DNA of 64,000 nt from Helicobacteraceae bacterium (GTDB lineage: Bacteria; Campylobacterota; Campylobacteria; Campylobacterales; Sulfurimonadaceae): contig JAGGTH010000033.1 of the NCBI GenBank assembly GCA_021163845.1, forward strand, positions 30,505 through 94,504, given 5' to 3'. Under the pieces are notes generated by a model. The model was not told where the DNA came from. It did no database searches and saw only the letters and a list, made by a program, of their open reading frames with translations. Position 1 is the first letter of the stretch. Every line of letters begins with the position of its first letter. Below, one piece after another: positions 3,689-17,870 of this stretch. The position numbers and the translations under genes are program-made.

Positions 3689-5251
3689 TTATTCTCCTGT
3701 TTTGTTTTCTTCATTTTTATCATTCGCGTGTTCATTGTGTAATGGTTTCATCGCTGGGAAAAGTAATACATCTCGAATGCTATGCTCATTTGTAAGGAGC
3801 ATCACAAGTCTATCAAGCCCTATCCCTTGACCTGCTGTTGGAGCCATTCCATAGCTGAGTGCTTCTACAAAGTCTTCATCCATCTCGTGTGCTTCATCGT
3901 CACCACTCTCTTTGGACTCTACTTGTGCCTTAAATCTTTCATACTGATCCACAGGATCATTAAGCTCACTAAAAGCATTGGCGATCTCGCGTCCTGCTAT
4001 AAAGAGCTCAAATCTCTCAGTGATCTCTGGGTTTACATCACTTCTACGAGCCAGTGGAGAGATATCTACTGGATACTCTGTGATAAAAGTAGGATTGATA
4101 AGCTTCTCTTCTACAAATCCATCAAAGAGCTCCCCTTGGAGTTGTCCTAGCGTCATCTCGCTTTTTGCTTCGAGCTTATTGGCTCTAAGATATGCTAATA
4201 TCTTCTCTTTGTCGTTGACAATATCCTCTGGCACGCCACCTATAACAGAGAGAGATTCAATAAGTGGGATCTCTTTAAACTCTGAGAAATCCACTTCCAG
4301 ATCTCCATATGGAAGTATAGTTGGCAAATCTAAATGATCGAATAAATATTCAAAATATTCTTTTGTAATCTTGATAAGATCTTTATATGTTTTGTACGCC
4401 CAGTAAAACTCTATGGATGTAAACTCAGGGTTGTGGGTTGCGTCCATCCCCTCATTTCTAAAGTTACGGTTGATCTCAAATACGGCTTCAAAACCACCAA
4501 CGATAAGTCTTTTGAGATAAAGCTCAGGCGCGATACGTAAAAATCTATCGATCCCAAGAGCATTATGATGTGTAACAAATGGCTTTGCGTTCGCACCACC
4601 TGCGATCGGGTGCATCATAGGAGTTTCTACCTCTAAAAATCCTTTATCTTCAAAGAAATGGCGTGTAAGCGAGATCACCTTCGAACGGATCTTAAACGTT
4701 TTTCTCACTTCAGCATTCATAATAAGATCAAGGTATCTTTTTCTATAGCGTGTTTCTTTGTCTGTGATTCCGTGAAATTTTTCAGGAAGTGGAGCAATCG
4801 CTTTGGTGAGAAGTTTGACACCCTCAGCGTGTAAGGAGAGCTCTCCTTTTCCAGTGACAAAGGGAAAACCATTGATCTCTACGATATCACCTGTTTCGAT
4901 ATTTTTTTTGAAAGTATCGTTATAAAAACCCTCAGGTAGGTTGTCACGCGCTACATAGACTTGTAGCATTCCACTCTCATCTTCGATTTTGATAAAGCTT
5001 GCTTTCCCCATGATACGAAAGAGTTTGATTCTTCCAGAAACTATATAGTGTCTTTTCTCATCTCTTTGATTTTCTTTTTCTGCGACATCAGAGTTTACAT
5101 TTAAAAATTTTGCAATCGTTGTATTTCTTTGAGAGTTATTCGCATATGGGTTGATCCCCTCAGCTCTGAGTAGCTCTGCTTTTTCAATTCTTTGTTGTAT
5201 AAACTTATTTTCAAAAGCCAATAGTTTTCCTTTTATGATTTGTTTTGACAT
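3689..5251 (-). CDS. lysS: Lysyl-tRNA synthetase, class II
   Basis: [62 protein letters not shown] motifs. Confidence 0.97.
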
Positions 5252-5715
5252 TTTTTACAAATGCCATAGATCTGCATCGAATGATCTGTCATCTTGAATC
5301 CAAGCTCATCTGCGATCTTGTGCTGTCTTTGCTCTATTTGCTCATCGACAAATTCTGTGATATCGCCACACTCTGTACATATCATATGGTCATGATGTTC
5401 TTTTGCACCTAGTTCATATTTCTTGCCTTGTGCTCCAAAAGAGAGTGAGGTGACGATATTTGAATCTTCTAAGAGTGCTAGTGTTCTATACACTGTTGCG
5501 ATCCCCGTATTGAGATCGGGAAACTTTTCTTGAATAAGATGATGCAATGCTTCGGGTGTAAGATGTTCATCGGAGTTGTAGAGAGTCTCTAAAATAACTT
5601 CTCTTTGGATAGTAAACTTTAGGGAGTTTTTCTTTAATAGTGCTTTAAAGTCATTGAGGAGTTGTTCATATTCAACAGTTTTATCATTAAAGTCAGTATT
5701 TACATTCTCTATCAT
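5233..5715 (-). CDS. fur: Ferric uptake regulator family protein
   Basis: [55 protein letters not shown]; overlaps the lysS start. Confidence 0.9.
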
Positions 5716-8923: not shown

Positions 8924-9301
8924 ATGGCGCACGAAGGTTTTCACGAAGATCCAAATCAGTTATCTAATTTTGCAAAAGATTATCACCGTATCATCCAAAG
9001 TACAATGGAGGAGCTTGAGGCGGTAGATTGGTACAACCAAAGAGCAGAATGTGCAACAGATCCTGAAGCAAAAGCGATCATAGAGCATAATCGCGATGAA
9101 GAGATTGAACATGCCTGCATGGGGATAGAGTGGCTGCGTAAAAACTCTCCCGTTTGGGATGCAATGCTTCGCGAGTTTTTATTCAAAGAGGGTAGTATTG
9201 TTGGAAATGAAAATGCGATGGCGGGTGAAGAGTCCGCTGATGCAGAGCCACAAGAATCCCCAAAAAGCGGAACCCTCAATATCGGAAATAACAAAAAATA
9301 A
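8924..9301 (+). CDS. Encapsulated ferritin-like cargo protein (EncFtn)
   Basis: LSNFAKDYHRIIQSTMEELEAVDWYNQRAE...HNRDEEIEHACMGIEWLR ferritin-like core plus C-terminal cargo-loading-like tail SGTLNIGNNKK; adjacent to the encapsulin gene; AAAGGAGAG SD. Confidence 0.9.
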   Translation: MAHEGFHEDPNQLSNFAKDYHRIIQSTMEELEAVDWYNQRAECATDPEAKAIIEHNRDEEIEHACMGIEWLRKNSPVWDAMLREFLFKEGSIVGNENAMAGEESADAEPQESPKSGTLNIGNNKK

Positions 9302-9312
9302 AGGAGAGTCAA

Positions 9313-10116
9313 ATGGAAATATTAAATAGATCGAATGCCCCTTTTAGTACAGGAGTATGGAGTGAGATCGATGCAACATTAGGTGCGTTTTTGTCCAAGC
9401 GTTTGAGTCTAAGAAGTGTTGTTGATTTTAACGAAACACCAACATACAATACAGATGCTATCTCTACAAAGCAACGCAGTGAAATCTCTAATAAAAATGG
9501 TCTGAGCATTGCTTCAAGAGAACCGATCAAAATGCTAGAGATCAAGAAAAATTTCACTCTCTCAAAGTCAGTGATCGAAGATATCAAAAGAGGTGTTGAA
9601 GATTTTGATGACAAAGAGTTTGCACGTGCTGCCAATGAGTTTGCTTCAGTGGAAAACTCCATGATCTTAGAGGGGATAAAAGCTGCAAATATCGGAGGGA
9701 TCCTTGCACATCCCGAAGTAAACTCTTTGGATGTAAAGTCTACAAAAGAGCTTCTGAGCGCTGTTGCAAAATCTCTTGGGATATTTAATAGTGAGTTTGT
9801 TGATGCCCCATTTAAACTTGTGCTCTCAAGTGCAACAATGGCAAAACTTTACACAGAGTTTTTTGATGGGATAAGCCTTAAAAATAAACTCGATGAGATA
9901 TTGGGTGCTGGTAATATCGTCATCAACCAAGATATTGGAGAAAACAAAGCACTTATTCTCTCAGCTCGCGGTGGGGATTTTGAGTTTTTTAGTGGGCTTG
10001 ATATCTCTATAGGGTATGAAAAAGAGAATAAAGAGGGAGTAGAACTCTTCTTGATCCAAACCTGTGCTTTTAGAATCTTAGGTCCTGAAGCTGCGATCGT
10101 TTTAAACCTAAAATAG
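9313..10116 (+). CDS. Family 1 encapsulin shell protein
   Basis: RSNAPFSTGVWSEIDATLGAFLSKRLSLRSVVDF ... C-terminal FFSGLDISIGYEKENKEGVELFLIQTCAFRILGPEAAIVL typical of the CFP29/linocin-M18 fold family. Confidence 0.93.
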   Translation: MEILNRSNAPFSTGVWSEIDATLGAFLSKRLSLRSVVDFNETPTYNTDAISTKQRSEISNKNGLSIASREPIKMLEIKKNFTLSKSVIEDIKRGVEDFDDKEFARAANEFASVENSMILEGIKAANIGGILAHPEVNSLDVKSTKELLSAVAKSLGIFNSEFVDAPFKLVLSSATMAKLYTEFFDGISLKNKLDEILGAGNIVINQDIGENKALILSARGGDFEFFSGLDISIGYEKENKEGVELFLIQTCAFRILGPEAAIVLNLK

Positions 10117-13822: not shown

Positions 13823-13876
13823 AAAAGATACCTCGATGTTTGAATGGATGCTATAATATCACCTATGGAGTTAGAT

Positions 13877-14305
13877 ATGGATAAAAAGAAAATTGTTGGG
13901 CGTAAAGAACTGATAAGTATTTTAGATTTGGAGTTATACGATCTTGATGCAAAAGTGGATACAGGGGCAGATTCAAATGCTCTTCATTGTGATGATATCT
14001 ATGTGGATGATGACGATGTTGTGCATTTTAAGCTTCATGATGAGGTACATCCCTCTTATCATGGCAAAGAGATGAGTATGCCTTTGTATCGCATGAAGCG
14101 TGTGAAGAGTTCCAATGGTGTGATTCAAGAGCGTCCTTCAATAAAGGTTAAAGTGAAGCTTTTTGAAGAGGAATATAATACTGTGATCTCGCTTACCAAT
14201 AGAGCAGATATGAAATACCCTATGCTCATTGGACGTAAGTTTTTAAGTGGCAAGTTTTTAGTAGATGTCTCACAAGAGTATGTAACAAAGCAAAATAATG
14301 AATAA
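13877..14305 (+). CDS. Retropepsin-like ATP-grasp-associated protease (RimB / DUF785 type)
   Basis: [36 protein letters not shown] with catalytic DTGA; immediately upstream of rimK. ATG at 13877 has GGAG SD; the track start 13844 precedes a TATAAT-like box. Confidence 0.85.
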
Positions 14306-15248
14306 AGAGAGTGTTATGAGAGTTTATATTTTATCAAGAAATCCAGAGTTGTATTCTACAAAAAGACTTGTCGAGGCGGGGGAACAAAGAGGATGGGAGA
14401 TGAGAGTGATCGATTATCTTCGTTGTAGTATCGAGATCATGAAAGGGCAACTACATATTAGCTACAACGGTGAAGATCTTCCAGCTCCTGATGCTATCAT
14501 CCCTCGTATTGGTGCGAGTAGAACGTTTTATGGTACGGCGATGGTGCGCCATTTTGAGATGATGGAAACCTTTAGTGTGGCAGGCAATCTTGCTATTGCA
14601 AGAAGTCGCGATAAGCTTCGAAGTCTTCAGATCCTCTCAAAGCATGGAGTCGATATGCCAAAAACGGTATTTGCTTCAAATAAATCGACTGCTAAAGATG
14701 TGATAGCACTGAGTGGCGGAACACCTCTTGTATTAAAGATCTTAGAGGGCACACAAGGGGTAGGTGTGGTACTTGTAGATACACAAAAGGCTGCGAAATC
14801 GGTCCTTGATGCTTTTTATGGAATGGATGTAAACTTGCTGGTACAAGAGTATATTGAAGAGGCTGGTGGAGCTGATATCCGTGTGCTTGTCGTAGGTGGC
14901 GAGGTAGTTGGTGCGATGAAACGTCAAGGGGCGGAGGGTGATTTTCGCTCGAATCTGCATCAAGGGGGAAGTGCCTCGGCACATAAACTCTCACGTAAAG
15001 AAAAAGCAACGGCACTCGCCGCTGCAAAAGCGATGGGGCTTGGTGTATGTGGGGTCGATATGATTCCATCAGCACGTGGTCCTTTAGTGATGGAGGTGAA
15101 CTCTTCTCCTGGATTAGAGGGGATCGAGAGATCGACCAACATCGATATAGCGGGAAAAATAATGGACTACATCCAAAAGAATGTCACACCCAAATCGGCA
15201 GAACCTACGAAGAAAAGAAAACTCAAAAGAGATAGCATAGGAGCATAA
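14298..15248 (+). CDS. rimK: RimK-type ATP-grasp alpha-L-glutamate ligase
   Basis: [35 protein letters not shown]..., [26 protein letters not shown] motifs. Confidence 0.93.
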
Positions 15249-15249
15249 T

Positions 15250-16299
15250 TTGGAGAATGATCCATTTGTTATTGGTGGTGTTGCGGTAAAAAGGGGGACG
15301 AATGTGATTATAAACATTGAACTTCCTAAGCTTTATAACACCCCTACAAAATTACCACTAAGAGTGATTCGTGGTAAGAAAGATGGACCTGTCGTATTTG
15401 TGAGTGCAGCGATTCATGGGGATGAACTCAATGGCATAGAGATCATTAGACGTTTTCGAAAACTAAATATTTTAAAAAAGCTCAAAGGCACAGTGATTGT
15501 TGTTCCTATCGTCAATGTATACGGGGTGATGAACCTCTCTCGCTATTTGCCTGATAGACGAGATCTCAATAGAAGTTTTCCTGGAAGTTTCAAAGGATCT
15601 CTTGCAGCGAGGATAGCGAAAATATTTTTTGATGAAGTGGTGAGCAAGTGCTCTTTGGGGATAGATTTACATACGGCATCTATCCATAAATCGAACCTTC
15701 CTCAGGTAAGAACCAACATTGACAATGAATATACCTTTGCCCTTGCAAAAGCATTTGAGGCTCCTGTGGTTTTACATTCAGAACTTCGTGATGGTTCTTT
15801 GCGTGCTGTAGCCCAAGAAAAAGGGGTGCCTATTTTACTCTATGAAGCGGGAGAAGCGCTTCGTTTTGATGAGCGAAGTATCCGCATTGGAGTCAAAGGG
15901 ATCGTGAATGTTTTACGAGAAAATGGGATGCTTCCAAAATCTTTGCATAAAAAAACACTCAAAACTCCTATAGTCACGCGTGAAAGCAGATGGATACGTG
16001 CAACTGAGAGTGGGATGTTGCGTACCATTAAGGCACTTGGAGATACAGTCGAAAAAGATGAGGTGATCGCGTATATTGATGAGCCACTCGATGATGTGTT
16101 TTTTGAGATACGTTCTCCATTTTCTGGAGTGATCATCGGAAAGTCTGAGATCCCTTTGATTCAAGAGGGGGATGCTATTTTTCATATAGCCGAATTTAAA
16201 AACTTAGAGATGGCAGATAATAAACTTGAGTATTTTCACGAAGATGCAATTGAGCAGAGTGAGTTTTATGAACTTAATAATGAGGAGATCATAGAATAA
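15250..16299 (+). CDS. Succinylglutamate desuccinylase/aspartoacylase family (M14-like) hydrolase
   Basis: GPVVFVSAAIHGDELNGIEIIRRF, LPDRRDLNRSFPG, GIDLHTA motifs. Confidence 0.9.
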   Translation: MENDPFVIGGVAVKRGTNVIINIELPKLYNTPTKLPLRVIRGKKDGPVVFVSAAIHGDELNGIEIIRRFRKLNILKKLKGTVIVVPIVNVYGVMNLSRYLPDRRDLNRSFPGSFKGSLAARIAKIFFDEVVSKCSLGIDLHTASIHKSNLPQVRTNIDNEYTFALAKAFEAPVVLHSELRDGSLRAVAQEKGVPILLYEAGEALRFDERSIRIGVKGIVNVLRENGMLPKSLHKKTLKTPIVTRESRWIRATESGMLRTIKALGDTVEKDEVIAYIDEPLDDVFFEIRSPFSGVIIGKSEIPLIQEGDAIFHIAEFKNLEMADNKLEYFHEDAIEQSEFYELNNEEIIE

Positions 16300-17222
16300 T
16301 GGACTATCAAGCTATATTAGAGGAGATACAAGAGGAGATACAGCCGTTTTTGAGTCAGGGAAAAGTAGCTGACTACATCCCAGCCTTAGCAAAGATAAAA
16401 AAAGAGCAGTTTGGACTCTCACTGACTCTCTTTGATGGAACGAACTATAGTGTTGGAGCATCAGATACCCTTTTTTCGATACAAAGTATTTCGAAGGTAT
16501 TTACTTTTACATTGGCGCTCAAATTTTTTGGTCCAAACCTTTATAAAAGAATAGGGCACGAGCCATCAGGAAATCCTTTTAACTCTCTTGTACAGCTTGA
16601 ATATGAACATGGAAAACCGCGTAATCCTTTTATCAATGCAGGTGCGATCAATGTCACTGATGCACTGATTAATTATTATGGAAGTGAAGAGCTTGCGTAT
16701 GCTGAGGTCTTAGAGTTTATTCGCTCTATTGCAGATGATAGCTCCATCGTCACGGATGAGCTTGTAGCACAATCAGAGATGGATCACGGACATAGAAATC
16801 TTGCACTTGCAAACTTGATGAAGAGTTTTAAAAACTTAGATAATTGCCCCCAGCGCGTTGTGGAAACTTATTTTAGACATTGTGCTGTAGAGATGAATAC
16901 AAAGATGCTCTCTCGGGCAGTACTTTATTTAGCAAATCATGGAGAAGATCCCATCACCAACAAGATCTATATCTCTGCACAGCAGGCAAAACGTATCAAT
17001 GCTGTGATGCTTACCTGTGGTCATTATGATGCCTCAGGTGATTTTGCTTTTCATGTTGGATTACCTGGAAAAAGTGGAGTAGGGGGAGGGATCATTGTAG
17101 TGGTTCCAAAAAAGATGGGAATTGCCGTATTTGCACCAGGTCTCAACGAGCAAGGAAACTCACTTGTTGGGACGATGGCGCTTGAACTTTTTGCTCAAAA
17201 GACAGGATTATCTATCTTCTAA
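16299..17222 (+). CDS. glsA: Glutaminase
   Basis: GKVADYIPALAKIKKEQFGLSL, FSIQSISKVFTFTLAL (SxxK), EPSGNPFNSLVQLEYEHGKPRNPFINAGAI. Confidence 0.95.
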   Translation: MDYQAILEEIQEEIQPFLSQGKVADYIPALAKIKKEQFGLSLTLFDGTNYSVGASDTLFSIQSISKVFTFTLALKFFGPNLYKRIGHEPSGNPFNSLVQLEYEHGKPRNPFINAGAINVTDALINYYGSEELAYAEVLEFIRSIADDSSIVTDELVAQSEMDHGHRNLALANLMKSFKNLDNCPQRVVETYFRHCAVEMNTKMLSRAVLYLANHGEDPITNKIYISAQQAKRINAVMLTCGHYDASGDFAFHVGLPGKSGVGGGIIVVVPKKMGIAVFAPGLNEQGNSLVGTMALELFAQKTGLSIF

Positions 17223-17614
17223 CTACTTAGCTGCTTATAAAGAGAGTTGAGATCGCCAAGAATATTGATACTTGCGATCTTATTATCTCTGATCTGGATA
17301 AAAGAAGCTCCAGAGTAGCAGATTCTATTTCCTGTTGGTGCATAGTTAAAGATCTTTCCCTCATGTGTCCCTGTGTAGGTTACATAAGCAGCGGCTGTGT
17401 TGTTTTCAACAATAAGCATCTCAACTGCATGATAGAGATTTGGAAATGCAGTTGTAAGCATCTGTGCGTACTCTTTAAATCCTTCTATCCCATTGGCTGT
17501 GATATCTAAAGAACCGCGAAACCTTACATCAGGATCGAGAAGGTTTTCTGCTTTATCAAAATCTTTTTCATTCCACATCTTGTAATATGCGTTGATAAGT
17601 TCTCTGTTATTCAT
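17219..17614 (-). CDS. SnoaL/NTF2-like (ester cyclase family) protein
   Basis: NNRELINAYYKMWNEKDFDKAENLLDPDVRFRGSLD...GIEGFKEYAQMLTTAFPNLYHAVEMLIVENNTAAAYVTYTGTHEG fold signature. Confidence 0.85.
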   Translation of the reverse strand: MNNRELINAYYKMWNEKDFDKAENLLDPDVRFRGSLDITANGIEGFKEYAQMLTTAFPNLYHAVEMLIVENNTAAAYVTYTGTHEGKIFNYAPTGNRICYSGASFIQIRDNKIASINILGDLNSLYKQLSS

Positions 17615-17788
17615 TTAACTTCCAATACCCCATTTTACTTGTCTCGCACCGCAACTTCCAATTGTCCATGTTGACTGTCTAGGATTTTTCCCGACACTCC
17701 ATTTTGATTGTCTCGTACCTCTACATGCACTCAGACGAATCGACTTTTTAGAAGACGCGCTTCCTATTGACCATTTAGATGATTTCAT
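17615..17788 (-). CDS. 57-aa repeat peptide with four KW[S/T/G][I/V]G[S/K] motifs; uncharacterised
   Basis: Reverse strand: GGAGGTGGTTGG-ATG start; translation MKSSKWSIGSASSKKSIRLSACRGTRQSKWSVGKNPRQSTWTIGSCGARQVKWGIGS; stop TAA abuts the ATG of the SnoaL-like gene. The track ORF 17615-17950 extends it upstream into putP. Confidence 0.8.
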   Translation of the reverse strand: MKSSKWSIGSASSKKSIRLSACRGTRQSKWSVGKNPRQSTWTIGSCGARQVKWGIGS

Positions 17789-17870
17789 CCAACCACCTCC
17801 GAGATATCGATTTGGAGCGAAATTATACTCACAAATGATATCTTTTGCGCTAAAAAATTTCTTAAAAATT

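Follow-up and report, generated by a model that had tools for sequence, protein, structure and literature searches.

The targeting peptides (TPs) of encapsulated ferritin-like proteins follow the consensus L(F)-X1-V(I)-X2X3-L(I), in which X1 is G, T or S and X2X3 is GS or GT, and a minimum motif has been given as LXI(L)X (PMC11202242). These peptides occupy a hydrophobic cleft between the N-terminal helix and the beta-sheet of the shell protein (PMC11202242; PMC8791618). Secondary cargos of family-1 encapsulins are usually encoded away from the core operon (PMC8229669), and a ferredoxin with an N-terminal TVGSL tag indicates that tags are not confined to the C-terminus (PMC8346489). In the encapsulin literature that we searched, we found no description of trans-acting or tandem targeting adaptors and no known case of a Trp at the TP anchor position.

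Here, we describe a 57-aa basic Trp/Gly repeat peptide (W57) encoded in a window of 64,000 nucleotides (the whole stretch of DNA analyzed) that also carries an encapsulin operon. From comparison at the sequence level, we propose, with slightly less than even confidence, that W57 is an encapsulin-targeting peptide that stands alone and is multivalent, forming a secondary cargo that lacks any enzyme domain.

Gene Structure and Coding Evidence

The W57 open reading frame (ORF) lies on the reverse strand (17615..17788), and its sequence was read directly from the DNA. The peptide has a pI of 11.9 and a charge of about +12 (+11.5), and contains neither Asp nor Glu. A Shine-Dalgarno sequence, GGAGGT (17795..17800, reverse strand, also read directly), is separated by six nucleotides from the ATG at 17788, and the TAA stop codon (17615-17617) touches the ATG (17614) of a SnoaL-like gene, with 0 nt between the two ORFs. 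All of these features (ORF, peptide sequence, Shine-Dalgarno, start codon and TAA-ATG abutment) had been reported in a preliminary description of this DNA and were exact on re-reading. Upstream, a promoter-like element, TTTAAGAAATTTTTTAGCGC...GAGTATAAT (17822..17866, reverse strand), with TATAAT as its downstream part, ends ~33 nt 5' of the W57 ATG; its full form has no second copy within the window. The element resembles the Campylobacter sigma-70 consensus. A match to DUF1882 is consistent with the Campylobacterota origin presumed in the preliminary description.

The synonymous codon choice of W57 is genome-like: its synonymous-only score (0.125, compared to a mean of 0.10 for real gene segments) was reached by none of 228 spurious ORFs, and the synonymous codons differ from intergenic base composition (p = 0.016). 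The full coding score is below that of every real gene segment and the amino-acid composition is unusual, which is no surprise in a basic peptide of low complexity. Based on the promoter, the Shine-Dalgarno and the genome-like synonymous codons, we take W57 to be translated, short of proof. A predicted 8-bp hairpin (17767-17798) overlaps part of the Shine-Dalgarno and carries the start codon in its hexaloop, GGAUGA; this is the layout of a CsrA-repressed start. We rejected a reading of W57 as a CsrA sponge, given that the count of GGA is not above that in synonymous resampling and is what the codons of the peptide give.

Four In-Frame Tryptophan Repeats

W57 contains four copies of a Trp repeat, all on the reverse strand: KSSKWSIGS (core WSIGS, 17759..17785), RQSKWSVGK (core WSVGK, 17687..17713), RQSTWTIGS (core WTIGS, 17654..17680) and, at the extreme C-terminus, RQVKWGIGS (core WGIGS, 17618..17644). 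The shared core can be written W-[SSTG]-[IVII]-G-[SKSS], and successive units, which share one reading frame, are offset by 24, 11 and 12 codons. The internal-repeat score of 193 far exceeds that of shuffled sequences (39 +/- 13, maximum 108, n = 2000), corresponding to a z of about 11-12. Among the 138 ORFs of the window that start with ATG and span 40-90 aa, W57 ranks first (z = 11.2), and the runner-up reaches 4.2. Similarly, W[STG][IV]G occurs four times in W57 and at most twice in 100,000 shuffles. The four repeats previously claimed for this peptide are thus borne out, whereas a fifth, degenerate copy suggested between the first two (KKSIRLS) is without separate support. Selection at the protein level had also been read from the use of different synonymous codons between copies. 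The pooled pS between units (0.57) does exceed pN (0.29), which points to protein-level constraint, but this small sample comprises only 9 codons.

An Orphan Peptide

Protein searches returned no relatives of W57 beyond chance matches in 201 family and 398 phylum genomes (overlapping samples), and none were found in GTDB contigs, viral contigs, plasmids or phages. There was no match in Pfam, NCBIfam, PHROGs, PDB or Rfam, in line with the earlier statement that no family was recognizable. Weak tblastn matches in the genus and family (E 0.005-1) came from antisense or off-frame readings that often contained stops, and the same is true of matches in two individual genomes (G552 and G206). GTDB was also searched for sequences with three W[STG][IV]G motifs, and there was no relative among the matches listed. 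These matches were GGGAATG-type simple repeats and one Bacillus sp. B1-b2 tandem array (locus L198, 69-545) read as ESPKWRVGKKKVVHKRN, which is a DNA repeat and not a relative. One GGGAATG-type repeat (locus L021) has a superficial likeness to KWGIGS. W57 is known from one genome. The preliminary description had named a lack of repeat-bearing homologues in related genomes as grounds for refutation; none were found in the family and phylum genomes searched, and thus conservation gives no support.

The SnoaL-Like Gene and Its Upstream Slot

The downstream gene (17219..17614, reverse strand) encodes a SnoaL-like protein with an NTF2 fold (PF07366, E = 1.3e-28), and its closest orthologues within the genus are 70-77% identical over the full length. 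In 19 of the 28 relatives with upstream sequence, the slot before SnoaL is occupied by an acidic protein of ~80 aa (hereafter X) that ends 0-16 nt upstream. X has a D/E content of 23-33% and a pI of about 4, and is unrelated to W57; W57 DNA also gave no match to X genes. The promoter-like element found before W57 is of the same kind as those 5' of the X genes in five other genomes and of the source genome's own X gene. This own copy, for which no Pfam family was found, lies elsewhere in the genome (contig C10; locus L082, 1501-1734), upstream of a tryptophan-synthase-like gene. Given that W57 fills the slot here while X lies elsewhere, an X-SnoaL pair was probably converted to a W57-SnoaL pair in the source lineage.

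X proteins (77-90 aa) have a poly-Asp/Glu tail, e.g., ...DDDEDEEFGYIQKFPHKSKFYED, and usually precede SnoaL (loci L032-L056), although they also occur alone beside other genes. In one subgroup (six loci), X is preceded by a palindrome, TGTTTGATA...TATCAAACA, some copies of which are degenerate; it is likely the operator of a regulator, and is absent from the window locus. Genes for an ATP-dependent Zn-protease, a RimK glutamate ligase and an AstE/AspA-like protein form a cluster, and protease or RimK genes adjoin X genes in several relatives (window 13844-16299; loci L052, L064 and L079), such that the acidic tail of X could be a RimK-type substrate.

In the predicted leader, most of the SnoaL Shine-Dalgarno and start is base-paired (mean unpaired 0.33), partly with the end of W57, inside which the 5' arm lies. 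The leader is also more stably folded than shuffled sequences (z = -2.3). This fits translational coupling; however, it is not distinctive, given that equally paired SnoaL starts are predicted in several relatives. Co-translation of the two genes, as originally suggested, is nevertheless probable, with the TAA of one abutting the ATG of the other.

An Encapsulin Operon in the Window

The preliminary description missed an encapsulin operon that lies 7.5 kb away, on the opposite strand, and whose targeting-peptide core is matched by the W57 repeats. The operon encodes an encapsulated ferritin (EncFtn; 8924..9301, forward strand; PF22277, E = 1.4e-37), with the tail SGTLNIGNNKK as its targeting peptide, and a family-1 encapsulin shell protein (9313..10116, forward strand; PF04454, E = 4.4e-48) with PDB relatives 7bcv (E = 9.6e-35) and 3dkt. 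A Fur-family regulator gene (5233-5715) is located about 3.2 kb from the operon, which is compatible with iron or peroxide control.

Encapsulin shells are rare in this group, being present in 2 of 136 genus genomes, and EncFtn was detected in 13 of 398 phylum genomes. Taken alone, the coincidence that W57 occurs in one of the two shell-bearing genus genomes is about 1.5%. The shell is more similar to that of G572, from another family (67%), than to that of its genus-mate G206 (57%), and the EncFtn-encapsulin operon is likewise closer to that of another family, which suggests that it was acquired horizontally. The other encapsulin genomes yielded no W57-like peptide; these include G206, which is 62% complete, and twelve further genomes with EncFtn.

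Resemblance of the Repeats to Targeting Peptides

The EncFtn tails of the phylum (13 genes) include LNIGNNKK, LNIGSNKK, LKIGNNK, LNIGKNKR, LSIGNNK and LGVGSLK. Several of them end without the final hydrophobic residue (Leu is often missing), as does W57, and the residue after Gly is N, S or K, compared to S or K in W57. For example, SKWSVGKNPR, which includes the second repeat core, resembles the EncFtn tail SGLNIGKNKR, and the core of repeat 4 (WGIGS) can be compared to the LGIGS of known TPs.

We built a TP matrix from the phylum EncFtn tails and five literature peptides, deliberately opening the anchor position to large hydrophobic residues, including Trp, and scanned 2336 ORFs from the window and 13 encapsulin neighborhoods. 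With this Trp-tolerant matrix, W57 ranked first, its four sites summing to 54.8 bits against 33.1 for the next ORF, and none of 3000 shuffled versions reached it (maximum 28.4 bits). Individual W57 sites scored 10-16 bits each, compared to 13.3 for the tail of the resident EncFtn. No other ORF of <250 aa in the window or the 13 neighborhoods had at least two TP-like motifs.

On the other hand, W57 departs from the strict TP consensus in its Trp anchor and in the absence of the final hydrophobic residue; the positions that it does fit are X1, V/I and GS, the last in three of four copies (GK in one). Repeat 4 (VKWGIGS) provides a terminal copy and the other copies are internal. A family-1 shell is encoded in the same genome and W57 lies outside the core operon, but no functional cargo domain was detected in Pfam, NCBIfam, PHROGs or PDB. 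We suggest that W57 probably functions in the manner of a targeting peptide, and do not claim membership in a cargo family because it fails the strict tag consensus and has no cargo domain. The TP hypothesis is post hoc, both loci having already been seen, and neither the co-occurrence nor the motif match is wholly independent of that choice. The position of W57 beside SnoaL, outside the encapsulin operon, and the lack of a W57-like peptide in the other encapsulin genomes searched also count against this role.

Alternative Explanations

A serious alternative, which we consider possible although clearly less probable, is that W57 is a lineage-specific translated leader, whose strong ribosome site brings in ribosomes to open the hairpin at the SnoaL start such that SnoaL is made only by coupling, and whose repeats have another role or none. 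The abutting stop and start codons, the pairing of the SnoaL start with a 5' arm within W57, the low fold energy relative to shuffles and the retention of a translated small ORF just before SnoaL in most relatives all agree with this; however, it does not account for the fourfold occurrence of a constrained W-x-[IV]-G core, and equally paired SnoaL starts in several relatives mean that the hairpin does not stand out. As for a transcription-attenuating leader, no intrinsic terminator was found, and there is no gap between W57 and SnoaL. The same fold energy, together with a start codon in a hexaloop, the lack of homologues and the odd amino-acid composition, could also mean that W57 is no protein at all: the ORF may have arisen by chance on an RNA leader that is structured or binds a protein, or the sequence may go untranslated. 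This is very unlikely considering the in-frame spacing of the repeats, the genome-like synonymous codons, the strong Shine-Dalgarno, the absence of an Rfam match and a GGA count no higher than resampling gives.

If W57 is a protein, its basicity and lack of acidic residues could instead reflect a cationic peptide of unrelated function (e.g., nucleic-acid binding, regulation or partnership with SnoaL) that replaced X, the match to TPs being coincidental. W57 does occupy the X slot of relatives and the genome's own X survives elsewhere, but we regard this as unlikely, as the repeat core corresponds to the TP core position by position in a genome with a rare shell. Slimmer still is the chance that W57 is the precursor of a ribosomally made, modified peptide (RiPP) with repeated cores. 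Short repeated cores, aromatic residues and the lack of homologues are features that such precursors would share, and a modified or processed peptide had been one initial interpretation, beside that of a repeat peptide acting on the SnoaL-like partner. It found no backing among the ORFs scanned, which cover roughly 1.1-41 kb of the window: no radical-SAM, YcaO, lanthionine or graspetide-type maturase, RRE or dedicated exporter was detected there, and the sole ATP-grasp protein is the RimK of its own conserved cluster. In addition, W57 has no leader distinct from its cores.

Proposed Role and Comparison With Known Systems

If W57 is a targeting peptide, it would bind the resident shell, with each Trp repeat docking in the hydrophobic groove that a shell subunit presents on its inner face, as EncFtn tails do, and Trp standing in for the usual Leu/Phe anchor. 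Four linked cores could provide avidity or bridge several shell subunits, and the +12 charge may place a cationic strand in the lumen that tunes ferritin loading or the iron-phosphate core; alternatively, W57 might carry the co-translated SnoaL protein into the shell. A more specific version, which we consider rather doubtful, is that the tag-only peptide acts in trans, either bringing the tagless SnoaL-like enzyme into the ferritin-loaded shell or filling docking sites and thereby setting the cargo ratio or lumen charge. If true, a separate tag-only peptide could set encapsulin contents, in addition to tags fused to each enzyme, and cargo recognition would be wider, extending to Trp anchors and tandem tags. 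Scans that look for Leu-based tags at C-termini would then be expected to miss partners, and W57 would offer engineers a natural multivalent loading tag for comparison with single tags.

With the acidic X protein, W57 has in common the operon slot, a similar promoter and close spacing to SnoaL; however, it is basic and built of repeats, whereas X (pI about 4) has no repeats and no sequence similarity to it. Like known family-1 TPs, such as SLGIGSLK (EncFtn of Rhodospirillum and Haliangium) and LTVGSLRR (the minimal signal of Myxococcus), W57 has a hydrophobic-[GST]-[IV]-G-S core, a flexible context and a last copy at the extreme C-terminus. Unlike them, it has a Trp anchor, is missing the final Leu/Ile, and carries four copies in one short peptide with no enzyme domain. 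In its distance from the core operon and its TP-like motif, W57 resembles family-1 secondary cargos, including EncC and EncD of Myxococcus and the ferredoxins of IMEF systems with their N-terminal TVGSL; however, each of those cargos joins a terminal tag to an enzyme or redox protein, whereas W57 consists of tags only.
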